A DNA stretch of 32,924 nt from Pseudomonadota bacterium (GTDB taxonomy: Bacteria; Desulfobacterota; DSM-4660; Desulfatiglandales; B25-G16), in contig JAUVXZ010000006.1 of the NCBI GenBank assembly GCA_030603345.1, forward strand, positions 1 to 32,924, given 5' to 3'. Shown in pieces: positions 4,511 through 32,570 of this stretch. The notes below the pieces were generated by a model, which had not been told where the DNA came from, did not search any database, and saw only the letters and a program-made list of their open reading frames with translations. Made by a program: the position numbers and the translations under genes. How positions within the stretch are numbered: the stretch's first letter is position 1; each line of letters opens with the position of its first letter.

Positions 4511-4622
4511 AATAATGAAAGTGCCTAAAGTTTGGAGTTGTCGGCTCGAAACGAGTAACGAGGTCCGGGGATATTGTGTAAATATCTTATATATGCCGAT
4601 GGTTTTGATGGGGTGAGGACCA

Positions 4623-5042
4623 TTAATTATCCTCATCTTTAGGTTTAATGAAAGGGAACTTGAAGAATTTGATCCCCTCTTCTTTGAGTGTTTTTTCTTC
4701 TTCTCCTGTAGCCGATCCCCTGATATCCCTCTTTTTTGCTACGCCGTAATGTATTTTCAGGGCCTCCTTAGTGAAAGCAGTACCCACGTCTTCAAAATTG
4801 TCCTTTATATACTCCATTATGCCCATGGCCAGTTTTTTGTAATCAGGCTTACCCTCTTCTGGCTTTTCCTCTCCTTTCGTGCTCTTTATTGCTACCGGAG
4901 AGAATACTCTGGTTATTTTGTTGCTCTTACAAAAGGGGCAGGTAATCATTCCCTTGGAATCCTGCTCGTCGAATGATTCAAGGTCCTTAAACCACCCTTC
5001 AAAGCTGTGTCCATTAGAACATCGCAGATCGAATGCAATCAT
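4623..5042 (-). CDS. DUF1178 family protein with N-terminal CxxC motifs
   Basis: MIAFDLRCSNGHSFEGWFKDLESFDEQDSKGMITCPFCKSNKITRVFSPVAI is typical of the DUF1178 N-terminus. Confidence 0.8.
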   Translation of the reverse strand: MIAFDLRCSNGHSFEGWFKDLESFDEQDSKGMITCPFCKSNKITRVFSPVAIKSTKGEEKPEEGKPDYKKLAMGIMEYIKDNFEDVGTAFTKEALKIHYGVAKKRDIRGSATGEEEKTLKEEGIKFFKFPFIKPKDEDN

Positions 5043-12219: not shown

Positions 12220-12410
12220 CTCGCTATTTATTGCTGGAAGTGATTAATGAGCTTATTCTGCAGCCTGAAAGCAGTAAGTACTATACCGGAAGGTTCAATG
12301 TGTAAGGCCCTTCAACTCAGGCCGGAAAGCAGGCATGTTGACCGAAGTAGCCTTAATTATCTCCTATTTTTGCGAAACATCTACGGCAAGCTCTCTGCTT
12401 TTGGAATATG

Positions 12411-13598: not shown

Positions 13599-13677
13599 AT
13601 ACTCCTTTACCTCCCAAAGGGCTTTTTAAAGGTATAAAACGGCGAGTATTGATGTAGAGCCTTTCAATATAGAGAAG

Positions 13678-14520
13678 TTACATGTATCCTAGCTGGCGCA
13701 TCCTTTCCATTGCTTTTTCTTTATCCTGTCGCCTTCCGCCCCGCTCCTCGGTGTTTTCAAGATCCTGTTCCCAGGCTGGAATATCAGAGTCTTTTACAGT
13801 AGTTGTCTTTGCTCCCAGGGAACGATAACCTTGCTCATAAAGCACACAGTAAGGAATATTGAAGGCAGCATAGGTATCCCACAGGTCCTTTTCAGTGAAG
13901 TGCAAAATGGGTCGAATCCGAGTGTGCTCAGGTACCAGATGAGCCATCTCCTTATGCTCAAAATATTCATCATTAAATCGAGCCGGATGTTCATCCCAAC
14001 GGAGGCCCTGAATTATCCCTTTGATACTATTTCGCTCAAGAAACTGGTTAAAGACCACAGTCTTCATCAGATGATTACCAACCTGTGACTCGGCCTCAAA
14101 GGGGAATTCCTCCCCATCGAATCCAATACGTTTCAGTTCCGCTCGATTGCGTTCGCTTAGATCCTTTACCTTAACAGGTGCATTCAACGTATGGTTAGCA
14201 GCCTTTAATACATCCTCATTTCTACAAACCTCAAGAGGAACATCCCATTCCTTCTTAATCGTTTCTACAAATTCCTCTATCTCCTGAAACTCATCACCTT
14301 CGCCGATAATCATTGCCTTAGGGAGAGGAACTCCTTTTTCCTCACAAACCTGCCGCGTGATCCACAAGGTCAACGTGCTATCCTTTCCACCTGTCCAGGT
14401 TATCCCCACTTCCTCATGCCCAAATTTCTCAAAGGCCTCTCGAACCACATCCTTGGAGAGCTCAATAAGCTTCGAACACTGTCTTTCCCTCTTTTCGCTG
14501 ATCTCTTTGTCAATTGCCAT
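13678..14520 (-). CDS. PAPS reductase/CysD-like PP-loop ATP pyrophosphatase family protein
   Basis: PP-loop TWTGGKDSTLTLW. C-terminus GYRSLGAKTTTV...ERGGRRQDKEKAMERMRQLGYM resembles the CysD tail. No PAPS-reductase catalytic Cys motif seen. Confidence 0.85.
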   Translation of the reverse strand: MAIDKEISEKRERQCSKLIELSKDVVREAFEKFGHEEVGITWTGGKDSTLTLWITRQVCEEKGVPLPKAMIIGEGDEFQEIEEFVETIKKEWDVPLEVCRNEDVLKAANHTLNAPVKVKDLSERNRAELKRIGFDGEEFPFEAESQVGNHLMKTVVFNQFLERNSIKGIIQGLRWDEHPARFNDEYFEHKEMAHLVPEHTRIRPILHFTEKDLWDTYAAFNIPYCVLYEQGYRSLGAKTTTVKDSDIPAWEQDLENTEERGGRRQDKEKAMERMRQLGYM

Positions 14521-14584
14521 CTTTAAATCTCCTTCTTGATTTTTTATTACCTTTCACTCCAGATCTGGTCCAGAGCTGTATTTC

Positions 14585-15793
14585 CTACCCCTGATATCTT
14601 TTTACCCTCGGCCTCACCTTTTCCTTCATCTCCTCTGCAGCAGAGGATGTCTCGACGATGTTATTGATCTCCTTTGGATCCGCATCGAGATCATATAATT
14701 CCCATGAGTCATCCCTCTCGCGATAAATGATCTTGAGGTCATCTTCACAATAGTAGTGGACTTCTTTTTCTTCACCTTTCTCCGTACTACCGTGCTTATC
14801 AACGGCCTCGCCAAAAACTCCCTTTGTAGGATAGTCCTCAAGGGGGAGAAGGGAGCAACCTTCAAAGACATCCACCTGATTGAGTCCGAAAAGATATACT
14901 ATGGTTGGAGGTATATCTAGGAGGGACACCAAAGTGTCATACACTTCAGCCTTTTCTCGAGAGGGCTCATAGATGATTAAAGGCACGTTGACCAGCTCTG
15001 AATACATCTTTCCATCATGAGAGAGTCCTCCATGTTCCCCAAACTCATCGCCGTGATCGGAAGTGATGATGATCAGCGAGTCCTTTAAGACATTACATTT
15101 TTCCAGAATTGCGAAAAATTCCCTTACCCCATCATCGATTTCCCGGACGTGGGCACAATAAAGCTTTCTCAAAAGCTCAACTACCCCCTTATCAGAAACA
15201 TCTCGTTTCAACAGTACGTCTTTGAAGAGCCAAAACATCTCTTTCTCATTCAGGCGAATGGACGAGTCTATCATGTCCACGTATTTTCTTTCTGGCACAT
15301 AGGGTTCGTGCACATCCATATAGTGCACCCAGAGGAAAAATGGATTGTATCCGGCTATCCCTCCAATATGGGATGATAACCATGTAGACACCTTATTGTT
15401 TATTTCCCCTGCTTTTATATACGGAACCTTATCATCAACCTCATCTTCCATGGAGTCATAGAAGACATCCCATCCCCTGTTCCAGCCAAAGTAAGCACTA
15501 AGATACGGATTTGAATGGAACCCAGCCGTTGTAACCCCCGCCCTCTTGAGCGATTCGGATATCAAGGCCCTCTTCTCCGAAAGCATTTTCCCTCTTCCAT
15601 ATTCGAGATAGTATGATGATGTAAGTATCCCAGGGAAGGCTGCTTGTGTGTAAGGACCAGGGGAATGTGCCTTGGTGAACCTGATGCACCTGTCCTGAAC
15701 CGAATCAATGAAAGGTGTAAAACCCTTCCCCCCATAGCAACCCAAAACATCCTTTCTTAAAGTGTCTAAGGTTAACAGGATCACATTTTTCAA
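14585..15793 (-). CDS. Sulfatase-fold (alkaline phosphatase superfamily) hydrolase
   Basis: NVILLTLDTLRKDVLGCYG, HYMDVHEPY, LIIITSDHGDEFGEHGGLSHDGKMYSELVNVPLII, ELYDLDADPKEINN. TTG start preceded by AGGAGG. Confidence 0.88.
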   Translation of the reverse strand: MKNVILLTLDTLRKDVLGCYGGKGFTPFIDSVQDRCIRFTKAHSPGPYTQAAFPGILTSSYYLEYGRGKMLSEKRALISESLKRAGVTTAGFHSNPYLSAYFGWNRGWDVFYDSMEDEVDDKVPYIKAGEINNKVSTWLSSHIGGIAGYNPFFLWVHYMDVHEPYVPERKYVDMIDSSIRLNEKEMFWLFKDVLLKRDVSDKGVVELLRKLYCAHVREIDDGVREFFAILEKCNVLKDSLIIITSDHGDEFGEHGGLSHDGKMYSELVNVPLIIYEPSREKAEVYDTLVSLLDIPPTIVYLFGLNQVDVFEGCSLLPLEDYPTKGVFGEAVDKHGSTEKGEEKEVHYYCEDDLKIIYRERDDSWELYDLDADPKEINNIVETSSAAEEMKEKVRPRVKRYQG

Positions 15794-15833
15794 TTACTCA
15801 CCTCCTGCTGCAATAGATTAACAAAGCTTCTCG

Positions 15834-17312
15834 TCAGTAGCCTAATGCCTTTAACCTGGACCGCATCTTCTCATGATCCTCCGGTGGACGTTCTGGTTTT
15901 TCTTCCCCCAAAAGAGATTTGCCTTCCATTTCCTTCGGTATTTCCAAATCCATCACATCAAGCACGGTAGGGGCCACGTCAAGCAACGTAGCTCCAGTGT
16001 GCTTTCCACTTGCAGGTACTCCCGGCCCAGCTATGCAAAAATAGCCGTTCAGACCATCGGCTCCGTCATCTGGGCCCGAGGGCTTGTCGAAGGAGTATAG
16101 GTTGCCCCGTCCATAACCGACCATCTCGCTGGTATTCCAGAGATACTCATCAAATAGAATGAAAAGATCCGGCCCATACTGGGCAAAGGGGCCGGAGTGG
16201 ATTTCCTTGCGCTTGAATACCCGAGTTTTTAGGGAGTTTCCTTGTTCATCTGGTATCTGTATTAGTTTGTCTGCCAGTTCATCCAGGAAACTGTCATAAT
16301 CATCAGGGTCAACAATTCCCTGAGGTTCTCTGCCTTTAACGTTGAGATATATCTGGCCTGTATTTCCCGTGGCCCAGGCCTTTGTCTTCGACCAGTCAGT
16401 CTTGAGTTCCGTCAACGGAGTACGCTCTGAAGGATATTCATGAAGCACCATGTATCCTTCTTGAATAAGCCATTCATTAAGATTAATTAGCCCGTCGAGC
16501 CTTTGCACGCCGTGAGCGCTGTGCACAAAGAGCACGGTATCTCCATTCAAGACATCATAGGTTTCACCAATGTGCTTGTCGATCCAGACATAGTAATCAT
16601 GTAACACGTTCGCATATCGAGTATCAGGATCATAGCGTCTATGGTGTTCATCAAGGTACCGATAAAAAAGATGTGACATCCTGTCACAACCTGTGATCAT
16701 TGCAAATACATAATCACATTGTTTCTGAACAAAGAAATGCTTGCAGAGTGTGAACCTTTGAGAGTCCATGTCGTAGATTTGTCTTAACACCTTATCTTTT
16801 TCTATCTGTAGGTAGTTTACCCCTGGCTCGCTCGCATCGATGATGTATTTCCCGACCAAGCGGTAAACCTCATCCTTTAGGCTTTCTGGCCAGGTGAAGC
16901 CTCTATCCAAACCGGGGGTCATAAAAGATGAAATGCTATACCCCCCTGGAATTCGAGGTGGTGGCCAGGTGAGAGGTGCGTTAATCATAGCTACCTTTTG
17001 CCCCAAAATCGGGAGTATCTTATACAGACAGTCCACCCTCTTATCCCTTACCGTGCAATCAATTAGTTTCGGCTGCCCGTAAGAAAAGTCATCCCGGTAG
17101 CTGAAATCCCAAAAACCAAAGGTCCCCGGGTTATGCCCTGTCTGAGCACACGTCCAGGCTGGATATGTGGAAGGAGGCACGGTGCTTTCCATGGTCCCCC
17201 AAATCCCCTGCTGTTGCAATTTTTTCAAATTGGGGAGGTCTTCCAACCACCTCTCTACTAACTCTGGACTGAAACCGTCCAGCCCCAAAACCACTACTTT
17301 TGACACTCTCAT
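15834..17312 (-). CDS. Alkaline phosphatase family protein (type I phosphodiesterase/nucleotide pyrophosphatase-like)
   Basis: KVVVLGLDGFSPELVERWL, PPSTYPAWTCAQTGHNPGTFGFWDF, VAPTVLDVMDLEIPKEMEGKSLL. Confidence 0.88.
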   Translation of the reverse strand: MRVSKVVVLGLDGFSPELVERWLEDLPNLKKLQQQGIWGTMESTVPPSTYPAWTCAQTGHNPGTFGFWDFSYRDDFSYGQPKLIDCTVRDKRVDCLYKILPILGQKVAMINAPLTWPPPRIPGGYSISSFMTPGLDRGFTWPESLKDEVYRLVGKYIIDASEPGVNYLQIEKDKVLRQIYDMDSQRFTLCKHFFVQKQCDYVFAMITGCDRMSHLFYRYLDEHHRRYDPDTRYANVLHDYYVWIDKHIGETYDVLNGDTVLFVHSAHGVQRLDGLINLNEWLIQEGYMVLHEYPSERTPLTELKTDWSKTKAWATGNTGQIYLNVKGREPQGIVDPDDYDSFLDELADKLIQIPDEQGNSLKTRVFKRKEIHSGPFAQYGPDLFILFDEYLWNTSEMVGYGRGNLYSFDKPSGPDDGADGLNGYFCIAGPGVPASGKHTGATLLDVAPTVLDVMDLEIPKEMEGKSLLGEEKPERPPEDHEKMRSRLKALGY

Positions 17313-17393
17313 CCTCCCTTCAATAATTCTTCTTCTTGATCATCATAATACTTAATTCGCTCTGCTCACATATCGTCCCAATATTCCACCATT

Positions 17394-17606
17394 CCCTGGC
17401 CAAGACCCCTGGCCCAGACCTGGCATGTTAAGATGTGTTGATGGAAAGTGAGGCATTCGTAAGCAGTGAAAACAGTTGGATATCCACATCCCGTCGCGCC
17501 AGGGCAGGCCCTGACCCAGACCTGGTTGCATAGGCTTAATAGGCTAATCCCAGCACATAGCACTCTATACACTTAACATGCTGATTCAAGTCCATAGCGC
17601 CAGGGC
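17394..17606. repeat. Repeat-rich intergenic spacer
   Basis: 13-mer CCCTGGCCMAGAC at 17394, 17407 and (1 mismatch) 17509; GCGCCAGGGC at 17496 and 17597; inverted GCATGTTAAG (17423-17432) / CTTAACATGC (17572-17581). Confidence 0.6.
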
Positions 17607-17645
17607 GTGCCATTCTTCCTTTTCCAAATGGGGAACATCCTGATA

Positions 17646-19547
17646 TTATCTAAATAACAAGCCAGGCAAATACAGGGCAATCTGGGGAAATATGACCAGA
17701 AGAATGACACATGCTATCATACAAAGAAAGAATGGAAAGATGCCTCTAAATATATCCTCCATAGGCACATCCTTGGCAACACTGGCGATGGCGAACACAT
17801 TCACACCGATGGGCGGTGTAATCTGCCCCATCTCCATTGTTAGTACGGTTACAACCCCGAACCAGATGGGGTCAAATCCCAGGGCAACAATCGCCGGAAA
17901 AATGGTGGGCAAGACAAGCAGGATCATCGGAATCACATTCAACAGGCAACCGAGAATTATGAAAAAGATTATCACAGCTGCGAATATGATATATCGACTT
18001 ACCTCCAATCCCGTAACAAAATTGGCCAATGCAAAGGGTAATCGAGTCGCTGCAAGGAAATAACCCAAGACACCTACACCGATCAGGATCAAAAGAAGCT
18101 TACATGTTATGCTTAGCGCCTCTTGCAGGGATAACATGATCATCCGCTTGTTAACACGTCCCCTGATTAATGCATATACAAAGGCACCAACAGACCCGAT
18201 AGCACCACCTTCTACAGGACTGAAAATCCCGCCCAATATCCCGCCCAATATCAGAACAAACAGCGCCAGCATGCCTATTACGCCTCTCAGGGAGATAATC
18301 TTCTCTTTTAAGGTAGTAGGCTCGCCTCGGGGTGCTAATTCGGGATCAATCTTTGCACGAGCATAGATCATACCACAAAACAAGACGGCGAGGAGTAACC
18401 CGGGCATTATACCTGCAACAAAAAGCCTGCCGATGGATTCTTCAGTGACGATGGCATAGAAGATAAACCCAACACTGGGCGGGATCAGGATGCCCATGGT
18501 CCCACCTGCGGCCAAACAACCTGTTGATAGGGACATATTATACTTATGCTTTTTCATTCCAGGGAGAGCGACTGTTCCCATGGTGACCGCAGTGGCAAGG
18601 CTGTCACCGCACACGGCTGAAAAACCGGCACATCCTGCCACGGAAGACATGGCCAAGCCCCCGGGCAGACGACCCAGCCATTTATTCGCGGTTTCAAAAA
18701 GATCTTCGCTGATCCCTGAGTGGTAGGCAAACTCCCCCATGAGAATAAACAGAGGGACCACCGTCAGCATATAGTTAGATGCGGTATCAAATGGGCCAAT
18801 GCCCAGCATGGCTAAAGAAGGCTTCGCCGCCTTGTAAGCCACAGTCATACCCAACAATCCCGTTAAGGCCATACCAAACCCAATGGGCATACCCAGAAAC
18901 AGGAGCACAAAAAGGAAGCACATCCCCAGAACTCCTGCAGTTGCTCCACTCAAACCTGTAGGCGCCAGACCTACCAGCGGTGCAATTAATATGAAACATG
19001 CGACTGTTAGGGCGAGGATCAACCACGGCCATCGCTTGTCTTCAAGGGAACGCTGAAGGGCCCGCAAAAAATCAAGTGCTACCACGATAGCCAGAATAAT
19101 AATGCCTAAGGCACCAATAAACCAAAAGATCCAGATAGGAATTTCGAGGTCATAAGTTATTACATTGTCTTGTATTTTTCTGATACCCTGCATGATGAGT
19201 TGGGAAGACATTATGCCGAAAAACAAAGCGCATATTAGATAATGAAAACAATCCAGAACATTTTTCACCCATTTCGGAAAACGCGAAACAATGAATTCTA
19301 TGCGTATATGCCCTTCATTAATCTGTATAAATGCAACCCCTAAGAAAATTATGATAAGCAACATATAGCTCTCAATCTCGATACCTCCCGGTATGGATCC
19401 TCTAAACGTAAACCGGGCTATGACATCAAAAAAGACCGGCAAGGGCATTATTAAAAGGAATCCAATGCTAATATAATTGGAGATGCGAGTTGCAGTGCCG
19501 AGGAATCTTTCAAGGTTTGTTACTGTCGAGTTTAAGCTCACGGTCAT
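17646..19547 (-). CDS. TRAP transporter, fused small (DctQ) and large (DctM) permease subunits
   Basis: N-terminal four-TM DctQ-like region followed by DctM motifs GMALTGLLGMTVAYK, GCAGFSAVCGDSLATAVTMGTVALPGMKKHKY, GQITPPIGVNVFAIASVA. Likely start MTVSLN at 19547. Confidence 0.92.
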   Translation of the reverse strand: MTVSLNSTVTNLERFLGTATRISNYISIGFLLIMPLPVFFDVIARFTFRGSIPGGIEIESYMLLIIIFLGVAFIQINEGHIRIEFIVSRFPKWVKNVLDCFHYLICALFFGIMSSQLIMQGIRKIQDNVITYDLEIPIWIFWFIGALGIIILAIVVALDFLRALQRSLEDKRWPWLILALTVACFILIAPLVGLAPTGLSGATAGVLGMCFLFVLLFLGMPIGFGMALTGLLGMTVAYKAAKPSLAMLGIGPFDTASNYMLTVVPLFILMGEFAYHSGISEDLFETANKWLGRLPGGLAMSSVAGCAGFSAVCGDSLATAVTMGTVALPGMKKHKYNMSLSTGCLAAGGTMGILIPPSVGFIFYAIVTEESIGRLFVAGIMPGLLLAVLFCGMIYARAKIDPELAPRGEPTTLKEKIISLRGVIGMLALFVLILGGILGGIFSPVEGGAIGSVGAFVYALIRGRVNKRMIMLSLQEALSITCKLLLILIGVGVLGYFLAATRLPFALANFVTGLEVSRYIIFAAVIIFFIILGCLLNVIPMILLVLPTIFPAIVALGFDPIWFGVVTVLTMEMGQITPPIGVNVFAIASVAKDVPMEDIFRGIFPFFLCMIACVILLVIFPQIALYLPGLLFR

Positions 19548-19626
19548 CTTAACGTATACCCGCCTTTCCTCCAGTTTATTCAGTCGACGTCTGCCTGATG
19601 CACTGATAATGGCTGCAATAATACGC

Positions 19627-19657
19627 ATTCATCCCCGTGCACAGCACGGGGATGAAT
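19627..19657 (-). promoter_or_regulatory. Perfect 14-bp stem, 3-nt loop hairpin between dctP and dctQM
   Basis: ATTCATCCCCGTGC-ACA-GCACGGGGATGAAT, between dctP stop (19702) and likely dctQM start (19547). Confidence 0.8.
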
Positions 19658-19701
19658 GTTATTGCTCAGTTGAGAGGGTCCAAGAACCGCTGTTGCCTGG
19701 C

Positions 19702-20769
19702 CTATTCCTTATATCCCCCTACGGTTGTTTTTGCATACTCCTTGCCTAACCGGATGGCCTCATCATGGATCTCTTTGGCGTTCTTAATTCCTTTGGCCTC
19801 CATGTCCTTAATCCACTTATCATGTATACCTTGAATCTTATTGGTCCATCTCTTTTTTTCAGCTGCTGGTAAAACATAAAATTTATGTCCTTGACCTTTC
19901 ATCCACTCGGAATCATTAATGGACCCATCGTCGAGCGTCTTACCACAGATTTGAGACAATTTTCTACCGGTCGTATCTTCCAGTATCTTCTTCAGGTCGG
20001 GAGGCAGGCTGTTCCATTTATCAGTGTTTATGGCCCCATAGAAGGGGTCACACATAGCGTCAATTATGGTATGGTATTTTGCTGCGTCGGTGATTTTGAA
20101 AGCTTTACATGGTGCTATGGGGAAAAACATACCTTCTGCCATGCCCCTTTCCAAGGCCAGATATGAATCCGGCGGTGTCATTTGAATAGGGTTCGCCCCC
20201 AGTTTTTTTATTATTTCCCGTATTTGGGGGTTAATGCCGATTATCTTCATGCCCTTTAAGTCTTCCAGGGTTCGTACCATCTTTTTCACTGTGTGAAGGT
20301 TGAAAGTTGCGCTTCCCCATTGCCACAACAGCTTTATGTCTCTAAACTCATTCCGCCACTCCGGGTATTTCTTATACATATCCCAAGTAGTTAAGCTGGC
20401 AGCCTCAGCGCCGTTAAAAGTGAGAGGTGTCTGAATTACCGTATTCAATGGGAATTTACCGTGGACCCAATGACACGGAGATCCTGTCATGTCAATTGAG
20501 CCAGCTACCAAAGCGGAGTAGACCTCTCTAGTGGGACATAGGGCATTTGGATTGAAAAAGTGGATCACCAATCTGCCGCCGCTAAGCTTTTTAACTCTAT
20601 CTATCCAGGGCAGTATGCCGTTTCTTATTGTTGGATGTTTGTCTGGATACTCACTGGCGTATCTTAGCTCGTACTTCTTTTCTGCCGACCAGGCACATAC
20701 GTTAAAGGCTGCTAAGAGTAAAAAACAGGTAAAAATGCCCACCATTGATGCTGAAAATAATTTCCTCAT
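19702..20769 (-). CDS. TRAP transporter solute-binding protein DctP family
   Basis: Signal peptide MRKLFSASMVGIFTCFLLLAAFNVCAWSA; ELRYASEYPDKHP, LVIHFFNPNAL, LEDLKGMKI, ERGMAEGMFFP; upstream of dctQM on the same strand. Confidence 0.92.
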   Translation of the reverse strand: MRKLFSASMVGIFTCFLLLAAFNVCAWSAEKKYELRYASEYPDKHPTIRNGILPWIDRVKKLSGGRLVIHFFNPNALCPTREVYSALVAGSIDMTGSPCHWVHGKFPLNTVIQTPLTFNGAEAASLTTWDMYKKYPEWRNEFRDIKLLWQWGSATFNLHTVKKMVRTLEDLKGMKIIGINPQIREIIKKLGANPIQMTPPDSYLALERGMAEGMFFPIAPCKAFKITDAAKYHTIIDAMCDPFYGAINTDKWNSLPPDLKKILEDTTGRKLSQICGKTLDDGSINDSEWMKGQGHKFYVLPAAEKKRWTNKIQGIHDKWIKDMEAKGIKNAKEIHDEAIRLGKEYAKTTVGGYKE

Positions 20770-21050
20770 TCTTTTGCCCTCCTTTTATAGTTCTTTTCTT
20801 TGCAAGTAAGTCCTGCCTTTTTTAGATTTTCCAATGACCAGCACCACCTCCTTCCAGAAGAATTCATGATGTTGTTGACCGTCTGGCTCGTCCTATTACT
20901 ACCAAGGAACATTATCGAATCATTGGATACTAACATATGCACAGATAAAATATGTACAATTCTTATCTGCACCTGCACTTTGTTTTTCTTGCTACTTTCT
21001 CATAGCCGCTTAGAGGCCTCAAAGGTCACTAAAAGATAAACATATTACCC

Positions 21051-22184
21051 TCAAAATCTAAATGCATCAGGGCCGTAGGTTCTATTCAACGATTCAAATC
21101 TCTTGGGATCGAGTTCTGCCCCTCTGAAGCCTGGATAATCGGAGCCGTAGCGATGAGCCCTGAAAACTAAATTGCTGAATCCTATCTTTTCCATGGGTAT
21201 ATCATAGAAAAATGGGTTAATGTACTCCCAGACGATCTCACCGTCCTTTGTTATCTCGAAGAAATGACCTGTTGGGCCTGCACAGATAAGGGTATTGCCA
21301 TTAGGCAATCTCTGGCAGCCAGAAATAAACGAAGCGAAGAAATTGCAAGGAGTTTTGTCCATATATTCCCAGACAATTTTACCCGTTTCTTGTTCTATTT
21401 CCATAACACGGGAATAACACTGGTTAATGAAGGGGCGATGTAATCCATTATCAAAAACCAAGATGTTGCCGTTATCCAACAGCGTGGGATTATGCGGATG
21501 CGCTAATTCTCCCCGCCCCCATCGCCATGTGATTTCCCCTGTTTTCTTGTCGATGATCAGGATGCTATCTAAGGTGAAACTAGCGGTCATGATGTTCCCA
21601 TCAGGCATAACCTCACAAGAATTACAATGGGTCCACTCAGCACGATGACATAAAGGACAGATAACATCTATTGCAGGATCAAGGTGATCGTAGCCGTACC
21701 ACTCCCAGATTATGTTTCCGTCCTCGTCTATCTCGTGAAAGGAATCACCCCAAATTACCCCTTTACGCTCTGTTCCGCGGATACCACCCTTTATCTTAGC
21801 GGCAATGTCGTCGGGTACCGCTTCCCATCTAAGCACCATGGTGTTACCGTTATCCATACGCCAGAAATCGTGATGCATAAATGGATCTTCGTACCGCCAC
21901 ACTTCCTTGCCGTTCCAATCTAACTCTAGTAAAACTCCACCCATCCCGCCAAATTCACCCGTAAATGGTCCCTTCTCTACCCTACCGGCATACAGTAAGT
22001 GGCCGTTAGGCAGGAGTTTAGCGTGCTCTCCAGGTTTATAAGGGGCTTGCCAGCAGTGAACAAAGCGGCCCTGCATATCGATCAACCAAGTCTTTTCTGC
22101 CCCTTTTGGAGCAAACAAGGTGTAACCATTGTATGCCTTGTGAGGCACATAGACAGTCGTGGATAATAAATCATTTTTCCTCAT
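21051..22184 (-). CDS. Arylsulfotransferase-like (ASST) beta-propeller protein, no signal peptide visible
   Basis: Repeated DG-N-I/T-x-x-W blades (DEDGNIIWEWYGYDHL, KTGEITWRWGRGELAHPHNPTLLDNGNILVFDNG, QETGKIVWEYMDK) and WTHCNSCEVMPDGNIMTASF resembling the ASST catalytic His region. Confidence 0.8.
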   Translation of the reverse strand: MRKNDLLSTTVYVPHKAYNGYTLFAPKGAEKTWLIDMQGRFVHCWQAPYKPGEHAKLLPNGHLLYAGRVEKGPFTGEFGGMGGVLLELDWNGKEVWRYEDPFMHHDFWRMDNGNTMVLRWEAVPDDIAAKIKGGIRGTERKGVIWGDSFHEIDEDGNIIWEWYGYDHLDPAIDVICPLCHRAEWTHCNSCEVMPDGNIMTASFTLDSILIIDKKTGEITWRWGRGELAHPHNPTLLDNGNILVFDNGLHRPFINQCYSRVMEIEQETGKIVWEYMDKTPCNFFASFISGCQRLPNGNTLICAGPTGHFFEITKDGEIVWEYINPFFYDIPMEKIGFSNLVFRAHRYGSDYPGFRGAELDPKRFESLNRTYGPDAFRF

Positions 22185-22706: not shown

Positions 22707-23519
22707 TCAGGTGCTCAATGAATTTCGGTCTCTGATCCAGATAAGCGGCTCAACGCCCATTGATGGCTTGAATGGCAGACCTTCTCGAACACAAGAAGTG
22801 GCGAGAGATGTGTCGCGGACATGGCACCCTGCCAGGGCGTTGATGCCCCAGTCAAACAGGCAGGGCGCAAACGGTGTACTGGGTCCAAGCATGATCGTGA
22901 AGGCCCCTTTGGGAATGAGGTTGAGGATGTCCGCACAGGTGCCGTTAAGGAGGGTAGTTGCTGTCAAGGCAATAACGTCAGCCTGCGGCAGAAATTCGGC
23001 CGCTGTCTCTGTCGGTATATCCCCTTCTTTGGGGTGGGTTTCCAACACCCAGAAGTTTCGGAATTTTCCTCCTATGTCGTCTACAAAGGGAAAATGCCCA
23101 ATGATCGCCACGTTTTTCCCTTGGCCTTGTTTGCGGATCAAATCCTGCGCCTTGAGCAGAACGGTATCTCGAGGAACAGGCAGCAGCGAGTTGATAGCAG
23201 CCATAGCATAGGCTGGGGCGTCTGGAAAGTCTGCCGGCGCGTGCACTAATAGCGAAGCAACTTCCCGCGCCGATTCCGGGATATGGCGATCATCCCTGGA
23301 GATATCTTGGGAGTGACGCCACATGTTTGAACAGATGCCCATGCGGGAGCTTATGACTGCCAGGAAATGGCTCCCCTGGATGATTTCCTTCACAGGCACT
23401 TCAGGCAATCTTGCCACAGCCAAGAAAATCTCTTCGAGCAGCCGTCTTTGGCTTCCTGTCATGGGCCTGTGTGTTGTTTCCATAATGTTCAAACCCTCTG
23501 TCGAGTCCTGGCGCGTCAC
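22707..23519 (-). CDS. DUF364/DUF4213-type Rossmann-like (putative metal-chelation domain) protein
   Basis: AYAMAAINSLL, VAIIGHFPFVDDIGGKFRNFWVLETHP, ADVIALTATTLLNGTCADILNLIPKGAFTIMLGPSTPF. Confidence 0.78.
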   Translation of the reverse strand: MTRQDSTEGLNIMETTHRPMTGSQRRLLEEIFLAVARLPEVPVKEIIQGSHFLAVISSRMGICSNMWRHSQDISRDDRHIPESAREVASLLVHAPADFPDAPAYAMAAINSLLPVPRDTVLLKAQDLIRKQGQGKNVAIIGHFPFVDDIGGKFRNFWVLETHPKEGDIPTETAAEFLPQADVIALTATTLLNGTCADILNLIPKGAFTIMLGPSTPFAPCLFDWGINALAGCHVRDTSLATSCVREGLPFKPSMGVEPLIWIRDRNSLST

Positions 23520-23828: not shown

Positions 23829-26411
23829 ATGGGAAAGGTAGAAAAGCTGACCACTGGTACAACAGGGGGACCGGTTTTTGTTTATGTGCAGGACGGTCGG
23901 ATAGTACGTATCACACCAATGGAATTTGACGATAGTGACGCGCCCTCATGGGTTATTGAAGCACGGGGCAGAAAGTTTTCCCCACCCCGGAAGACCACTC
24001 TCTCTCCGTACTCATTTGCCTGGCGGTCGATGGTCTATTCGCCTAAGAGACTCTTATATCCCCTCAAGCGGGTCGATTTTGATCCTGACGGCGAACGAAA
24101 CTGCACTAAACGAGGGGAGTCAGGGTATGAGCGGATCAGTTGGGACGAGGCAACAAATATTGTCACGAATGAGATCAAGCGAATCAAACGGGAGTATGGC
24201 CCCGCAGCTATATTGAGCACTGCAAGTTCTCACCATCTCTGGGGACATCTGGGCTACCGTCACAGCACCTACTTCAGGTTCATGAACCTTATTGGATTTA
24301 CGTACGCAGACCATAATCCCGATAGCTGGGAGGGATGGCACTGGGGAGGTATGCATCAGTGGGGATTTAGCCATCGGCTGGGCATTCCCGAGCAGTATGA
24401 TCTGTTGGAGGACGCGCTCAAGCATGCAGAAATGATCGTATTCTGGTCGAGCGACCCTGAGACTACCCATGGAATCTACTCTGCATTTGAAAGTACCTGT
24501 CGCCGTCAATGGCTAAAGGGTTTGGGGGTCAAGATGGTCTTTATCGACCCGTTTTATAATCACACGGCCGGCATGTATGCAGACAAATGGTTCGCTCCGA
24601 GACCAGATACGGGTAATGCCATGGCCTGTGCCATCGCATTTGTGTGGATAACGGAGGACTCTTACGACAAAACCTACATCGAAACCCGAACGGTAGGGTT
24701 TGACAAATTCAAAGACTATATCCTGGGTAAGGAAGACGGCATACCCAAGACGCCTGAGTGGGCAGAAGAAGAAAGCACCATCCCTGCTAGAGAAATCAAA
24801 GCCCTGGCTAGAGAATGGGCCTCTAAGAAAACCATGCTGGCCGCTGGTGGATTGGGCGGCTGGGGAGGTGCGTGTAGGTCCGCAACGGGAACAGATTGGG
24901 CCCGCCTTATGATCAGTTTGGCAGCAATGCAGGGCTTAGGAAAGCCGGGCAGTAACATCTGGGGAACAACCCAGGGAGCGCCCCACAACTCAGATTTTCT
25001 TTTCCCGGGTTATACTGAGGGAGGGATGTCTGGCGATGTGGACAACTCGGCGGCGGGTTTTCGTTTTGTCTATCGCATGCATAAACAACCCACCCGCTCT
25101 AATATAAACGCCCCTATGGGCCAGCACATCCCTCGGCTCAAGATCCCGGAATGCATCCTAGACGGCAAATTTGAGTGGAGAGGAAAGGGATTCTGCGGTC
25201 AGTCTATTGAGGCCCAGTTCCATAAATACAAATACCCGGCGGACGGGTATCCGGAGATTCAGATGTACTACCGGTACGGTGGTTCTTTCATCGGCACCAT
25301 GAATGAGACCAACCGGTATGTGAAGGCCTATAGGACCGAAAGGCTCCCCTTTGCGGTGAACCAGTCCATCTGGTTTGAGGGTGAGGCCAAGTTTGCCGAC
25401 ATCATTCTGCCCGCATGCACCAACTTTGAGCGGTGGGATATTAGCGAATTCGCCGGCTGTCATGGATATATTCCTGACAACACCTCTCAGGTCAACCATA
25501 GGGTCATCACCTTGCAGAAGAAATGCATTGAGCCCCTGGGGGAATCGAAATCAGATTACGAGATCTTCACCTTCTTGGCCAAAAAATTAGGGTTCTCAGA
25601 GGTTTACACCGAAGGCGGCCTGAGCGAACTCGATTGGGTCAGGAGGTATTTTGACGCCACTGATCTGCCCAAATACATTTCATGGGATGAATTCTTCAAG
25701 AAGGGCTACTTCGTGGTTCCCATACCGGAGGAGTACAAAGCCACCCCTGCCCTGAGATGGTTTGCCGAGGACAGGAAAAGGGACACACCAGACTGGGGGC
25801 CCCATCCCGAGTGTCAGGAAGAGTTCGGTAAGGGACTTCAGACAACCTCTGGTCTGATAGAGTTTGAGTCTTCCAGTCTCAAGAAATTTGACCCAGAGGA
25901 TGAAGAGAGACCCCTCATACCCAAATACATACCCTCCTGGGAAGGGCATCACACCACGAGACTCTACACCAAGTACCCGTTGCAGTTGATATCCCCGCAT
26001 CCCCGATTCAGTTTTCACACCATGGGAGATGCGAAGGAGAGCTGGATAAATGAGATCAAGGACCATCGGGTCTTAAAGGAAGACGGCTATTACTACTGGA
26101 TCATACGGATCAACTCGAAGGATGCCAAAGAGCGAGGAATCAAAGAGAACGATCTGGTCAAGGTATTCAATGACCGGGGCGCTGTGATCTGCGCAGCCCA
26201 AGTCACCGAACGGGTTCCTCCTGGCACGGTTCACTCCTATGAGTCCAGTGCAGACTATGATCCTATGGGTAAACCGGGAGAATCAACGGATCGGAATGGA
26301 TGTATCAACCTGCTAACGCCAAGCCGTTACATAACGAAAAATTCCTGCGGCCAGGCACCGAACTCATGTCTCGTACAAATAGAAAAATGGAAGGGGGAGA
26401 GCAGAAAATGA
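23829..26411 (+). CDS. athL: Pyrogallol-phloroglucinol transhydroxylase / resorcinol hydroxylase-family molybdopterin large subunit
   Basis: DMSO-reductase-family fold lacking the N-terminal Fe-S cysteine motif. H141/Y149/D171/S172/W173/W351/Y401 (ORF-track numbering) keep the relative spacing of the Pelobacter acidigallici enzyme residues as I recall them (H144/Y152/D174/S175/W176/W354/Y404). Followed by the matching small subunit. ATG at 23829 (MGKVEK) likely. Confidence 0.82.
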   Translation: MGKVEKLTTGTTGGPVFVYVQDGRIVRITPMEFDDSDAPSWVIEARGRKFSPPRKTTLSPYSFAWRSMVYSPKRLLYPLKRVDFDPDGERNCTKRGESGYERISWDEATNIVTNEIKRIKREYGPAAILSTASSHHLWGHLGYRHSTYFRFMNLIGFTYADHNPDSWEGWHWGGMHQWGFSHRLGIPEQYDLLEDALKHAEMIVFWSSDPETTHGIYSAFESTCRRQWLKGLGVKMVFIDPFYNHTAGMYADKWFAPRPDTGNAMACAIAFVWITEDSYDKTYIETRTVGFDKFKDYILGKEDGIPKTPEWAEEESTIPAREIKALAREWASKKTMLAAGGLGGWGGACRSATGTDWARLMISLAAMQGLGKPGSNIWGTTQGAPHNSDFLFPGYTEGGMSGDVDNSAAGFRFVYRMHKQPTRSNINAPMGQHIPRLKIPECILDGKFEWRGKGFCGQSIEAQFHKYKYPADGYPEIQMYYRYGGSFIGTMNETNRYVKAYRTERLPFAVNQSIWFEGEAKFADIILPACTNFERWDISEFAGCHGYIPDNTSQVNHRVITLQKKCIEPLGESKSDYEIFTFLAKKLGFSEVYTEGGLSELDWVRRYFDATDLPKYISWDEFFKKGYFVVPIPEEYKATPALRWFAEDRKRDTPDWGPHPECQEEFGKGLQTTSGLIEFESSSLKKFDPEDEERPLIPKYIPSWEGHHTTRLYTKYPLQLISPHPRFSFHTMGDAKESWINEIKDHRVLKEDGYYYWIIRINSKDAKERGIKENDLVKVFNDRGAVICAAQVTERVPPGTVHSYESSADYDPMGKPGESTDRNGCINLLTPSRYITKNSCGQAPNSCLVQIEKWKGESRK

Positions 26412-27244
26412 AAAAGTGGAATCTGGTCATCGATGTAGCAAAATGTCACGATTGCAATAACTGTTTTCTCTCCTGTAAGGATGAATACGTGGGTAATGAT
26501 TTCCCGCCTTTCTCCGTGGCCCAACCCAACCATGGCCACCGATGGATGAATATCATGCGCAAAGAGAGGGGCCAATACCCTAAGGTGGACGTTGCCTATC
26601 TGCCCATCCCGTGCATGCACTGCGATGACGCCCCGTGTATCAAAAAATCAAAAGACGGGGCAGTGTATAAAAGAGATGACGGCATCGTCATTATTGACCC
26701 GGAAAAGGCAAAAGGCCAGAAGGATATCCTTGCTACCTGTCCCTATGGTGCTATCTGGTGGAATGAGGAGAAGGCGGTGCCGCAAAAGTGCACACTGTGT
26801 GCCCATCTGCTCGATGAGGGGTGGAAAGAGCCCCGGTGTGTTCAGGCATGTCCCACCGGGGCATTGCGTGTGATCTACGCTGAGGATTTCGAGATGCAGA
26901 AGATCATTGAATCTGAGAATCTGGAAGTATACCAGCCACAATATAAGACAAGGCCCCGTGTATATTACAAGAATCTGTACCGCTACGCCACCTGTTTCAT
27001 TGCGGGCAGTGTGGCCATAAGGGATACAGATGAGTGTGCCGAGGGGGCTACAGTATCACTGATCAAGGGCTCGAAGAAGACAATCGCTGAGGCTGTGACT
27101 AATAACTATGGGGACTTCAAATTCGATGGTTTCGATGAGGATGGTGGCGCCTACAGCCTCGACATCTCTTACAAAGACCGGCCAAAGAAGATCATTGAGT
27201 TAGAGCTCAAGACCAGTGTTAATGTGGGGACCATTCTTCTGTAG
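26408..27244 (+). CDS. athS: Transhydroxylase-family iron-sulfur small subunit with C-terminal beta-sandwich (Cna_B/transthyretin-like) domain
   Basis: MKKWNLVIDVAKCHDCNNCFLSC...; 12 cysteines in the ferredoxin part; C-terminal AGSVAIRDTDECAEGATVSLIKGSKKTIAEAVTNNYGDFKFDGFDEDGGAYSLDISYKDRPKK. ATG 26408 overlaps the large-subunit stop by 4 nt. Confidence 0.85.
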   Translation: MKKWNLVIDVAKCHDCNNCFLSCKDEYVGNDFPPFSVAQPNHGHRWMNIMRKERGQYPKVDVAYLPIPCMHCDDAPCIKKSKDGAVYKRDDGIVIIDPEKAKGQKDILATCPYGAIWWNEEKAVPQKCTLCAHLLDEGWKEPRCVQACPTGALRVIYAEDFEMQKIIESENLEVYQPQYKTRPRVYYKNLYRYATCFIAGSVAIRDTDECAEGATVSLIKGSKKTIAEAVTNNYGDFKFDGFDEDGGAYSLDISYKDRPKKIIELELKTSVNVGTILL

Positions 27245-27517: not shown

Positions 27518-28216
27518 CTAACATCTCCTCACCAGCTCGTGAAGATATTCCATATCAATCTTGACAAGTCCATCGAGAATCAGCAAAAAACCTCGATAGA
27601 AATCTGTCCACGCATCTTTTTGTGCCTGGCAACAGAACTCCCCAACCCAGCTTCCCAGGTGTTCCGTGAGAAACTGTTCTTCAGCGGCGACCGTTCTACT
27701 CACATCAACTGCAGATGCCCACTGTTCCTGCTCACGTAGACATAGATTTCTCATAAAATCGAGCTCAACGCACAGGTAGTCCGGAGTCTCGAGAACTGTT
27801 TCATCTGGCAACAAGCCAGCCTTTCTATAGAATTTTTTGACTTCAAGAACCGACGCCCCTCTCCCTTTCCCATACCTGTACACTCCCTCATAGGGAGGCC
27901 TGAGGTTCGTATTGCTCGTTCCCCTGAGGATTCTGGTTCTGTCCACAGACAACTCGGTGAGAACCTCTTCATCGGGCTTGGTTTCAACAGCGCCGCAATA
28001 TGACCTGATATGGTCAACGCCAGACTTGAATCTCGATTTGTCCCATTCGTAGAAGCTATCGAGTAATTCATCAAGGCCGTTGCCTTTTATCCGAATAAGG
28101 AGATCTTTGTCCGGAAGGCTGTCGAAGATACCCACGAGCGAACCGTAGGCGTCGGCCCTCCGTTCGGCTACTTGTACCATCGTTTCCCTATCCTTAAACG
28201 GCTTCCTTCCGGGCAT
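27518..28216 (-). CDS. TorD/DmsD-family molybdoenzyme maturation chaperone
   Basis: RADAYGSLVGIF..., NLRPPYEGVYRYG, KKFYRKAGLLPDETVLETPDYLCVELDFMRNLC, directly downstream of an A-B-C molybdoenzyme operon. Confidence 0.85.
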   Translation of the reverse strand: MPGRKPFKDRETMVQVAERRADAYGSLVGIFDSLPDKDLLIRIKGNGLDELLDSFYEWDKSRFKSGVDHIRSYCGAVETKPDEEVLTELSVDRTRILRGTSNTNLRPPYEGVYRYGKGRGASVLEVKKFYRKAGLLPDETVLETPDYLCVELDFMRNLCLREQEQWASAVDVSRTVAAEEQFLTEHLGSWVGEFCCQAQKDAWTDFYRGFLLILDGLVKIDMEYLHELVRRC

Positions 28217-28217
28217 C

Positions 28218-29258
28218 CTATCCCCCTGCCATCAGCGTCTTCAGGTAGATGATTCCCGAACTTAACCACACACATGCTGCCAGCCCACCGAGGACCAGCA
28301 TCCACTCTGCGGCGGTTGGCTTATAGGCAGGCTTCTCATCGAATTGGCTGTAAGGGAACGGCACGGTTGGATTCATCTGGTACTGCCTCATCACGTGAGA
28401 CTTCTCCATAAAAACAGCCACAAGGATGAGCACCGAGGCCAGGGCCGGAAGAAATGTATTCCGGGGTCCGATAATCTGTGTCACGATCAGGATGAGGAGG
28501 ATAAACGTATCCAGGAAAATAATCTTCCTGTCAACCTCACTCCCCGTACTGGTCAGAGATGCAATATATGATCCGGTGATGGGAATCAGTGCGAGGATCG
28601 TCAGGATGAGAAGGATCCCGGCCAGATTACTTTCTTTCATTCCTGTTGCCAGGGCGATCAGGTTCACCAGGGCCATTCCGCCCCACAAGCTCTGGGCCAA
28701 GGTGTCAAGACCAAGAAAGGGTTGGGATCTGAACCCTGCTCCCACCCTGGATAGGAAAAAGAGGGTGTGTATCATGACATAGGCCAGTGCCGCAATGAGG
28801 CACAAAATCGACCATATAGTGGTAACCAGCCCGCCATTGTGTATGACCCCAGTCAGAAAGATCACGTTTAACACACCGCACAACGAGAGCATGAAGAAAT
28901 CCCAGGTCAATGGGGAGGCCAAGTTCTTGCCAGTCACGATCTTTAGGGCCCGAAACGGCTTTCCCAAATCGGCGCCCAGCAAGCCCGCTGCACAGATCAG
29001 GCAGCTCAATGATACCGCTGCCCCAATTTCAGCGAGGGACCGAACCGCCTCTATCTTAAAGAGCGTTGCCGCAGACACAAACACGAGGATGCCGCCGGCC
29101 AGGGCCGAAAGGTAAAAGAATCCCTGTATATAGAGGCCCCAGTTGAAGGTGTCGTGAAGGGCTGTCGTTGTCAGTCCCCACCTCAGCTGCTTGAGAAATA
29201 CAAGCCCTGCTATCACGGAGAGCAAAACCGTTACCGCAATCAGTATCCAATACAGCAT
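28218..29258 (-). CDS. NrfD/PsrC-family membrane quinone-interacting subunit
   Basis: Polytopic; TALHDTFNWGLYIQGFFYLSALAGGILVF, GADLGKPFRALKIVTGKNLASPLTWDFFMLSL. Start MLYWILIA at 29258 preferred to 29306. Confidence 0.85.
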   Translation of the reverse strand: MLYWILIAVTVLLSVIAGLVFLKQLRWGLTTTALHDTFNWGLYIQGFFYLSALAGGILVFVSAATLFKIEAVRSLAEIGAAVSLSCLICAAGLLGADLGKPFRALKIVTGKNLASPLTWDFFMLSLCGVLNVIFLTGVIHNGGLVTTIWSILCLIAALAYVMIHTLFFLSRVGAGFRSQPFLGLDTLAQSLWGGMALVNLIALATGMKESNLAGILLILTILALIPITGSYIASLTSTGSEVDRKIIFLDTFILLILIVTQIIGPRNTFLPALASVLILVAVFMEKSHVMRQYQMNPTVPFPYSQFDEKPAYKPTAAEWMLVLGGLAACVWLSSGIIYLKTLMAGG

Positions 29259-29268
29259 ATAGTCCTCC

Positions 29269-29874
29269 TCAGCCCTTAACGTAATATATCGAAGGTTGGG
29301 TGCCAAGTTCCTCCCTGAACGGAGTTCCCCTGTAGTCGGCGATCAGCCGAGAGACCTCGCTCTCCGGATCGTCCAGATCCCCGAAGTATCGCGCCTGCGC
29401 TGGACATGCCACCACGCAGGCGGGCAATTGTCCTTCCTCCAGTCTCTGGAGGCAAAAATTACATTTGACCACGGTCCCTTTTTCGAAGTCCTTCTGTTTC
29501 AGCACCTCATAGGGTGTTGGCACGTGACCCGGGTAGTAATTCCTGATGTCCCAAAGAAACTGTCTGCTCTCGTAAGGGCAGGCAACCACGCATGCCCTGC
29601 ACCCGATGCACTTGTCATGGTCTATGAGCACAATTCCATCCTCACGCTTATATGTAGCACCGGTCGGGCAGACCTTGAGACATGCCGGATCCTGACAGTG
29701 CATGCAAAGGATAGGCAGGAATTTTATCTTTGCAGTCGGATATTTTCCGACCTCATATTTCTTGACTTTATTATACGACACACCAGCAGGTGTTCCATGT
29801 TCCGCTCGGCAGGCGACGGTACAGGTACCACATCCTACGCAGCGCGAGAGGTCGATTACCATCGCGTGCCTCAT
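29269..29874 (-). CDS. 4Fe-4S ferredoxin-type electron transfer subunit (PsrB/DmsB-like)
   Basis: 16 cysteines in four clusters: CVGCGTCTVAC, CMHCQDPACLKVCP, CIGCRACVVACP, CNFC...CVVACP. Confidence 0.92.
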   Translation of the reverse strand: MRHAMVIDLSRCVGCGTCTVACRAEHGTPAGVSYNKVKKYEVGKYPTAKIKFLPILCMHCQDPACLKVCPTGATYKREDGIVLIDHDKCIGCRACVVACPYESRQFLWDIRNYYPGHVPTPYEVLKQKDFEKGTVVKCNFCLQRLEEGQLPACVVACPAQARYFGDLDDPESEVSRLIADYRGTPFREELGTQPSIYYVKG

Positions 29875-32552
29875 TTACGTACCTCCTTCTTGTAGAGCTT
29901 CACACGTGGGGCACTGTCCTGACCTCCACTCACTCCATCAAAGGTCTTCTCGTCTAAAGAAAGTAATGTGTTGAAGTTCGGTCCTATTCTGTTCAACGGG
30001 TTTGACTGTAGGGTACCCAAACCGTAATTACCTGAAATACCCACAGCGTCTGGGTGGAAAAGCTCCGATACGCGCACCCTTCCCTCAATCTTGCCGTACC
30101 GTGACTCAATGATGACCATATCTCCATCCTTGATATTCTTCCTTTGCGCTGTAACCGGGTTTAAACAGATAACGGCCTCATAGGGATCTTTGGAATAGAG
30201 TTCCGCAAGCCACGGGTTCCCGGCTACATTACCGGCATCACTCGAGTAGTAGGGCGTCTTCCAGTTTATGGCCCATAAGTCGAATCCCTCGGGTGCCCTG
30301 AATTCCGGTGTTTCCACCCAGTGCGGTACCGGGCGGTACAGGTCAAATACATAATCCATGTCATCGACTCCGGGGAATGATATATTGTGTTCAAGAAGGT
30401 TCGCCCGCAACTCATCGCCTACCTTTTTTAAGCCCAGGAAATAGAAGGGATGTCTCGTTTTGTCGTCGGGGAAATAATAATAGTTATAAAATTCCTTCCG
30501 CGGTTTCCAGTGGGCTATGTATCCTTTCTCTTTGAGATCTTTCAACCCCTTACCGCCGCTGTAAGGCCAGCCCCTGATCTGCCTGTCGACGATCTCTTTC
30601 AGGGTGTATTTCCTGTTTATATCGAGCTTATATTCCCCATTCATGTTGAGGCCATCGGTCTTATCAACCCAATCGATGTTGTTATTCAGGTGATCATACA
30701 GTCCCCCTTCACCACAAAGAATCCCCAACCGCTCCGCCAGTTCCGTAAAGATGTCGTCCGCATGCTTCGTATTAAAGAGTCGTGGGACCGGTTCCCGCAA
30801 CTGAATCATTTTGAGCCCATTTACCTCGTCATCGATGGATTGATGTTGAGGATAAAAGGCGGCAACCCGAAATCGCTCCAAGGCACTGTGCTCAGGCAGA
30901 AGCACATCCGAGAGAATGGCAGGCTCATCCATATGCAGGGCAACGGATACGACAAACGGTATCTTCTTGAAGCCCTCAACGTACGCGTGCGGTTGAGCAT
31001 TCATTTTGATGGGATTGCCCCCAACCGAGATATAGGCCTCTATAAGGTAGTCGAGATAGTACTTTTCGGGGTCCAGAATCGACTTGATGGCAATATGGGG
31101 GGCCGTATGCTGGTGCGGATAGAACTCAGCCAAGCCGATATGATCAGGGGGGTACTTGAAAGGCCTCGGCACCGCCTCATACGCAGGCTTCACCGTTCCG
31201 TCCTCATCAGGTCCCATAATTGGGCCTCTGAAGCTGCAGCTCAGACACCCGCCTGGTACCTCGATGTTGCCTACCAGCATGTTGATGATCTTGCCGGTCA
31301 GGTCGGCATAGGTTCCACCCCTTCTGTTGGTCACGTTCCGCTCGGTGTTCAGGGACACGGGTCGAAAGGGAAAGGTGAACCCGTCAATCTCAATAGTACT
31401 GCCAATTCGGGCGTGCTCCACAAACTCCTTGGCGATCCGTCTGATGGTTCTCGCTGGCACCGTGCAGATTCCCTCTGCCCATTCCGGGGTGTATTTGGAG
31501 AATTCATCGCAAACAACATCAAAGCCTGCCCGGCATTCAACTCCATTAACGGTATGGGTGCCGGTCAGGGCAATATCCTCAAATTCCGCATCAAAAGGTT
31601 TGGCCGTATCTTCGATCGCCTCCCACATAAGTGGTTTCCCCGTCTTTTGATCTCTGCAATAGTCTCCATCGGGTCCGATTAGATAGGGTGCGTTCGTCCG
31701 ATTCTTGAGAAACCACACATCGTACCGCTGAACCTCGAAAAGCATCACGTGAGCCATGCCCAACAGAAAGGCCAGGTCTGAGCCGGGGCGAATCGGAATC
31801 CACTCCCCTTTGGAGGCCTCATAAGAGCTGCGGGGATCAACGACCACCAGCTTCATCCCTCGCTCTATTGCCCTGGCAAACTTGCGAGTTCCCGGCGCGG
31901 TAGCAAAATTGGGGCCGAGAGATCGACCTAAGGTAATATGATATTGACAATATTCAAGGTCCACAATAGCCACAGGATAGCCAGCGTGCACTAACCCCGA
32001 CGGATAATGAACCGTACAGAGAGCCCCGTGAGAGCCTATTTCATTGGGTGTCCCAAAGGCCTGACCAAATGGCTGCCGCAGAATTGTATCTCGCTGACCC
32101 CACCCTTCACACAGCACCAGACCTCTGGGGTCTTTCTCACGCACATTTTTCAGGCGTTCCACTACGAGATCTAGGGCCTCATCCCAGGTGACCTCCTTCC
32201 ACATAGGATCGACATCTAGGCCCTTCTCTGGGTTCGCGCGGACCATCGGTGTCTTTACACGGTACGGGTTATACAGACCCATGAGCTCAGATTTACCTCG
32301 GGGACAGAGACTTCCGTAATTGGGCGGCGCTTCCGGATTTCCCTCCGTTTTGACTATGATTCCATCTTCCAAATACACTAAGGTTGCACAGTCACCTTGC
32401 ATACACGCTCGGCACAGACCGTATAGTACTTGTCGTTTTCCCTTTTCCTTTGGATCAACCTGTTTCCATTTGTAGGGCGAAGGCTTAAATGCCTTCTGAT
32501 TAGATTCAAGGCCTTTGAATCTGCGCGCATAATCAATGAACCGTTTGAGCAT
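29871..32552 (-). CDS. Molybdopterin-dependent oxidoreductase catalytic subunit (PsrA/PhsA/TtrA/ArrA-like)
   Basis: CRACMQGDC...CPRG Fe-S motif, ITWDEAL-like VTWDEALDLV, GSHGALC candidate Mo ligand, C-terminal molydopterin-binding AQRKNIKDGDMVIIESRYG. ATG 32552 with GGAGG; the ORF-track start 32561 is TTG. No Tat signal evident. Confidence 0.9.
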   Translation of the reverse strand: MLKRFIDYARRFKGLESNQKAFKPSPYKWKQVDPKEKGKRQVLYGLCRACMQGDCATLVYLEDGIIVKTEGNPEAPPNYGSLCPRGKSELMGLYNPYRVKTPMVRANPEKGLDVDPMWKEVTWDEALDLVVERLKNVREKDPRGLVLCEGWGQRDTILRQPFGQAFGTPNEIGSHGALCTVHYPSGLVHAGYPVAIVDLEYCQYHITLGRSLGPNFATAPGTRKFARAIERGMKLVVVDPRSSYEASKGEWIPIRPGSDLAFLLGMAHVMLFEVQRYDVWFLKNRTNAPYLIGPDGDYCRDQKTGKPLMWEAIEDTAKPFDAEFEDIALTGTHTVNGVECRAGFDVVCDEFSKYTPEWAEGICTVPARTIRRIAKEFVEHARIGSTIEIDGFTFPFRPVSLNTERNVTNRRGGTYADLTGKIINMLVGNIEVPGGCLSCSFRGPIMGPDEDGTVKPAYEAVPRPFKYPPDHIGLAEFYPHQHTAPHIAIKSILDPEKYYLDYLIEAYISVGGNPIKMNAQPHAYVEGFKKIPFVVSVALHMDEPAILSDVLLPEHSALERFRVAAFYPQHQSIDDEVNGLKMIQLREPVPRLFNTKHADDIFTELAERLGILCGEGGLYDHLNNNIDWVDKTDGLNMNGEYKLDINRKYTLKEIVDRQIRGWPYSGGKGLKDLKEKGYIAHWKPRKEFYNYYYFPDDKTRHPFYFLGLKKVGDELRANLLEHNISFPGVDDMDYVFDLYRPVPHWVETPEFRAPEGFDLWAINWKTPYYSSDAGNVAGNPWLAELYSKDPYEAVICLNPVTAQRKNIKDGDMVIIESRYGKIEGRVRVSELFHPDAVGISGNYGLGTLQSNPLNRIGPNFNTLLSLDEKTFDGVSGGQDSAPRVKLYKKEVRK

Positions 32553-32570
32553 AAATCGCAACCTCCATTG

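Follow-up and report, generated by a model that had tools for sequence, protein, structure and literature searches.

The window analysed here, a stretch of 32,924 nucleotides, carries a two-gene operon on the forward strand. The first gene starts with an ATG at 23829, just 3′ of the purine-rich ribosome site AAGAGGAAAAGAC, ends with a stop at 26411 and encodes 860 aa. The second (26408..27244, +) encodes 278 aa, and its ATG overlaps the stop of the first by 4 bp (ATGA). The interval 23829-27244 given in the first-pass annotation was therefore correct. The products are a predicted large, catalytic subunit with bis-MGD Mo and a predicted small subunit, corresponding to AthL and AthS of the Pelobacter acidigallici pyrogallol-phloroglucinol transhydroxylase (TH).

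A phmmer search of all PDB chains with the large subunit gave the Pelobacter pyrogallol hydroxytransferase (4v4c_A) as the top match (1319 bits, E = 0, 858 residues; global identity 65.5%), the second-best being TMAO reductase with only 263 bits. Pfam analysis found the TH-specific first domain PF21423 (AhtL-like_1st, E 2.6e-30) together with the molybdopterin (PF00384) and dinucleotide-binding (PF01568) domains. The large subunit had been described earlier as lacking an N-terminal Fe-S motif; indeed, Pfam detected no Molybdop_Fe4S4 domain (PF04879), no CxxC or CxxxC occurs along the entire protein, and its first cysteine is residue 92. Among NCBIfam models no equivalog was found, every match lying far under its cut-off. 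An AlphaFold2 model built with 11 close relatives (pLDDT 33, pTM 0.25) was too poor to read the pocket.

The small subunit matched 4v4c_B with 293 bits and 52.6% identity, the next PDB match having 99 bits. All 12 cluster cysteines of AthS are aligned and conserved, and three [4Fe-4S] sites are predicted by homology. PF13247 was matched as well, and the C-terminus has a CarboxypepD_reg-like beta domain (PF13620, sub-threshold).

Active-site pocket and family tree

Ten residues of the Pelobacter enzyme (H144, Y152, R153, D174, S175, W176, W354, Y404, C557 and Y560), which we take to be the pocket described in the crystal-structure paper, were numbered by verification against the PDB sequence. 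In the alignment the window protein agrees with the Pelobacter enzyme at each of these positions, including the Mo ligand S175; the first-pass annotation had already named this serine as the predicted ligand. The codons of Asp165-Ser166-Trp167 (860-aa numbering; D174-S175-W176 of TH) lie at 24321..24329 (+), and this triplet is invariant in the 11 close relatives. A constant offset of -3 from the TH numbering had also been claimed, using an 866-aa ORF. It is exact for H144/H141, Y152/Y149, D174-S175-W176/D171-S172-W173, W354/W351 and Y404/Y401, but does not hold along the whole protein, being -7 at C557/C550 and Y560/Y553. Counted from the ATG at 23829 the offset is -9.

The pair resembles AthL/AthS (PDB 4v4c/4v4d/4v4e) in its two subunits, domain order, serine ligand and ten pocket residues, in the lack of a large-subunit Fe-S cluster, and in the 12 small-subunit cysteines and C-terminal beta domain. 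It differs by sequence divergence, by a shorter loop near TH residues 99-106, and by its host, an uncultured bacterium in whose 88.6% complete genome the downstream pathway was not found.

A tree of 31 family members, AthL included, was built with sequences from related genomes and public MAGs as well as the window. The window protein, its 11 close relatives (hereafter type A) and AthL formed one branch with support 99/98, other paralogues falling outside. Since the AthL branch is long and the tree lacked RhL, of resorcinol hydroxylase, this result argues strongly for TH-likeness but settles the choice between TH and resorcinol hydroxylase (RH) only in part. The tree placement that the first-pass annotation had named as a check thus came out on the side of AthL. 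With plasmid homologues added, the branch still had an SH-aLRT value of 99. The assignment to the TH/RH family of molybdenum enzymes can accordingly be refined to its AthL side, given the 65.5% identity, the pocket, the clade and the TH-type small subunit.

A separate clade, type B (L076, L079, L086, L087 and L094-L097), shares 58-66% identity with the window protein. Its members have the same core and serine ligand and differ by a conserved extension at the N-terminus, about 140 aa long, and by the substitutions R153 to W/Y and W354 to F/V. Large subunits with the extension are encoded at 12403-15504 in L076, 1051-4059 in L086, 1096-4065 in L094 and, on the minus strand, 2568-5582 in L079. 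The extension is also present in three plasmid loci (L120, L121 and L123), and lies inside the annotated CDS on Burkholderia stagnalis and Salipiger abyssi plasmids. These plasmid-borne homologues (L120-L123; 51-55% identity to the window protein) are annotated as molybdopterin oxidoreductase, and a search of the plasmid collection for named RhL-like genes gave nothing beyond them. Like type B, they keep the core and the serine ligand, carry changes at R153 and W354 and fall outside the AthL branch. Pfam gave SCP2 matches in the extension of three members out of ten; the one match listed with its cut-off lay below it. Weak SCP2 matches in PDB (E 0.33-0.48, from seven sequences) disappeared once the plasmid homologues were added. 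The extension may be weakly SCP2-like.

Other family members diverge further in the pocket. In a third set (L088-L090) R153 is replaced by K, W354 by E and C557 by A, and a distant set (L100-L105; 34-36% identity to AthL) keeps H, D, S and W and has lost the remaining pocket residues. The predicted pocket fingerprint sets the window protein apart from AhtL-like proteins of the same order and groups it with the characterised enzyme. At R153 and W354 the extended paralogues differ from the AthL-like clade, and these are concrete positions for testing substrate choice. The distant set consists of pairs of nearby large subunits in same-order genomes (G031, G036 and G039) and represents an uncharacterised subfamily.

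Gene neighbourhood and downstream pathway

We found 17 TH loci in GTDB genomes, 15 of which encode the same protein with 69-91% identity to that of the window. Hosts were MAGs labelled Deltaproteobacteria, Desulfatiglandales, Desulfobacterales and Syntrophobacterales, and Chloroflexota (Anaerolineales bin12, RBG_16_48_8, CSMAG_2701 and a Dehalococcoidales). Proteins from three Chloroflexota MAG loci (L010, L017 and L022) are 78-87% identical to the window protein, and such similarity between Chloroflexota and deltaproteobacterial-type MAGs suggests possible gene transfer between phyla.

In nine loci (L009, L010, L012, L014, L016, L017, L018, L020 and L022) the surroundings of TH include one or more genes of phloroglucinol-pathway type. 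These genes encode an SDR reductase, a 3-hydroxyacyl-CoA dehydrogenase (3HCDH), a BKACE-family cleavage enzyme and a cyclase (PF04199); individual roles, such as phloroglucinol reductase for the SDR, are assigned from family and context rather than from orthology with a characterised sequence. Genes for a Liv-type ABC transporter and for an IclR or GntR regulator are often nearby. In the Chloroflexota locus L010 type A is accompanied by a full phloroglucinol cluster including acetoacetate-CoA ligase, and on the L015 contig about 400 bases separate the TH gene from the end of a cyclase match upstream of it. The BKACE beside type A is close to NF053538 (3,5-dioxohexanoate:acetyl-CoA acetone transferase), scoring 402 bits where the cut-off is 430. 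The same gene families make up the phloroglucinol pathway demonstrated biochemically in Clostridium scatologenes (PMC10470551).

The window itself has no such cluster: the TH pair stands alone, and annotation of the window found no phloroglucinol reductase or hydrolase gene, as had been stated before. The genome to which it belongs (3.33 Mb in 330 contigs, 88.6% complete) has one TH gene. At this completeness it yielded no PF04199 cyclase, no close match to a triacetate-lyase-like gene (best 117 bits) and no orthologue of the neighbours' reductase, the best SDR being 34-38% identical. Its single BKACE (C207) was considered as triacetate lyase and rejected, being 38% identical to the clustered BKACEs, most of which share 44-73% identity among themselves, and having housekeeping-type neighbours. 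An EF-G fragment at the left end of the window was likewise rejected as a marker of a missing cluster: an EF-G gene stands beside the phloroglucinol cluster of the same-genus MAG bin73, and the two are 36% identical.

Genomes of the same genus do have pathway genes. In bin73 (G004 = G017) SDR, 3HCDH, BKACE and a type B TH are together at 4.95 Mb, and a cyclase and a third TH are at 3.77 Mb; another genome (G015) carries a type B TH together with five cyclase matches and two BKACE genes that score over 400 bits. The genes missing from the window's genome may reflect an assembly gap or real loss. Because that genome is 88.6% complete, their absence is weak evidence against TH. A search for dsrA gave no match at E <= 0.001 in the same genome, although several relatives bear the labels of sulfate-reducer lineages; the host may not be a sulfate reducer, or dsrA may lie in the missing part.

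The third TH paralogue of bin73 (L077:10574-12538, -) is about 59% identical to the window protein. Its N-terminus is cut by a run of N, a small subunit is present, and it adjoins the PF04199 cyclase. This stretch also holds BKACE, SDR and other genes and is a possible second phenol cluster.

Predicted function

The Pelobacter enzyme transfers a hydroxyl group of its co-substrate 1,2,3,5-tetrahydroxybenzene to pyrogallol, which becomes the new tetrahydroxybenzene, while the old one is released as phloroglucinol, the reaction being redox-neutral overall. Normally phloroglucinol reductase next reduces this product, a dihydrophloroglucinol cyclohydrolase of the cyclase family hydrolyses it, and oxidation and cleavage to acetyl-CoA units follow. 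From sequence we infer the substrate, metal and activity of the window enzyme: the operon very probably encodes a pyrogallol-phloroglucinol transhydroxylase located in the cytoplasm. Homology predicts that the large subunit binds Mo-bis-MGD, with the metal coordinated by Ser (S166 from the ATG; S175 in TH numbering), and holds phenols in its His/Tyr/Asp/Tyr/Trp pocket, and that the small subunit carries three [4Fe-4S] clusters. The pair would thereby convert pyrogallol to phloroglucinol in a tetrahydroxybenzene-dependent manner, as in Pelobacter.

The first-pass annotation had left the substrate open. The presence of the type A gene among phloroglucinol-pathway genes in relatives clearly shifts the odds to conversion of pyrogallol to phloroglucinol, and the choice of substrate can be provisionally narrowed to this reaction. 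A TH-family enzyme that works on another polyphenol (e.g. hydroxyhydroquinone or tetrahydroxybenzene) within a series of successive transhydroxylases would be consistent with the two to three TH paralogues of relatives. Types A and B occur together in G017, G041, G043 and G053, being on one contig in G041 and adjacent in G043 (87189-89753 and 90711-93257), and type B differs at R153 and W354. It is, however, type A that has the AthL pocket and belongs to the AthL clade, and type A that accompanies the full cluster in the Chloroflexota locus L010, which makes another substrate unlikely for the window enzyme.

A resorcinol- or 3,5-dihydroxybenzoate-hydroxylase-like enzyme of RhL/DbhL type would hydroxylate the phenol oxidatively with water and pass on two electrons. 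RhL/RhS of Azoarcus anaerobius is, by published description, a sister of TH in the group with a serine ligand (PMC10100899), and failure to find the phloroglucinol pathway in the window's own genome fits a non-TH function. Against this, every pocket residue is that of AthL, whereas other same-order family members differ at R153, W354 or C557; the protein falls in the AthL clade, and the same gene is embedded in the phloroglucinol clusters of relatives. We consider such an enzyme improbable here. Transhydroxylation of pyrogallol to phloroglucinol is much more likely than resorcinol hydroxylation, a split that rests on AthL and gene context rather than on direct comparison with RhL.

Confusion with a catechol dehydroxylase or another DMSO-reductase-family enzyme, which shares the superfamily with TH and, for catechol dehydroxylases, catechol-type substrates, is hardly credible, since catechol dehydroxylases cluster beside acetylene hydratase and away from TH (PMC7028382), acetylene hydratase (2e7z) scored 53 bits against 1319 for TH, and PF21423 is present.

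The window enzyme is a well-preserved, ordinary member of the TH family, and its sole oddity is that the next-step genes were not found in an incomplete genome. Enzymes of this kind are already known, because predicted pyrogallol hydroxytransferases have been reported in anaerobic sediment Chloroflexi (RBG-2, RBG-1351 and DEH-C11) since 2013 (PMC3971608, PMC4959651). The same gene pair was predicted there, as judged from the published descriptions; the window host, in contrast, is not a chloroflexote, a same-genus genome being labelled Deltaproteobacteria. The pair is a well-supported addition to a family of which very few enzymes have been characterised. Its close copies (78-87%) in Chloroflexota and deltaproteobacterial-type MAGs stand mostly beside a phloroglucinol-degradation cluster, and oxygen-free breakdown of tannins and polyphenols becomes testable in uncultured sediment lineages.

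A bolder and rather doubtful proposal is that the host keeps TH without the ring-cleavage module and supplies partner cells with phloroglucinol. In a wider version, sediment bacteria might use a two-enzyme set in which type A is joined by type B, with its perhaps weakly SCP2-like N-terminal extension and changed pocket, for a second or bulkier polyphenol.

Other genes in the window

Upstream of the TH operon and divergent from it lies a gene for a DUF364 (putative heavy-metal chelation) protein (22707..23519, -; PF04016). A DUF364 protein 65.5% identical by tblastn flanks TH in the same position in bin73 (L013). A TRAP transporter is encoded at 17646..20769 (-), with a fused DctQ-DctM at 17646-19628 and DctP at 19702-20769 (PF06808, PF04290, PF03480), and is a possible uptake system. 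The bin73 locus also has a TRAP system beside TH, but its permease is just 40% identical.

The region 11221-22184 (-) contains genes for a TauE exporter, ATP sulfurylase, a PAPS-reductase-like protein, a sulfatase, a type I phosphodiesterase-family protein, the TRAP system and an arylsulfotransferase-like protein. These could handle sulfated organics and, more speculatively, might take up sulfated phenols and desulfate them as a supply for TH.

Downstream of TH, on the opposite strand, a second Mo enzyme operon occupies 27518-32561 (-). Its catalytic subunit is Psr/Phs-like with an N-terminal Fe-S motif, and it is accompanied by a multi-cluster ferredoxin subunit (just above the DsrO model cut-off), an NrfD-like membrane subunit and a TorD/NarJ-like chaperone. 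Along with the two Mo enzymes the window holds Mo cofactor genes at 952-1440 (+) and 4055-4636 (-), encoding a MoCF_biosynth-domain protein and MoaC.
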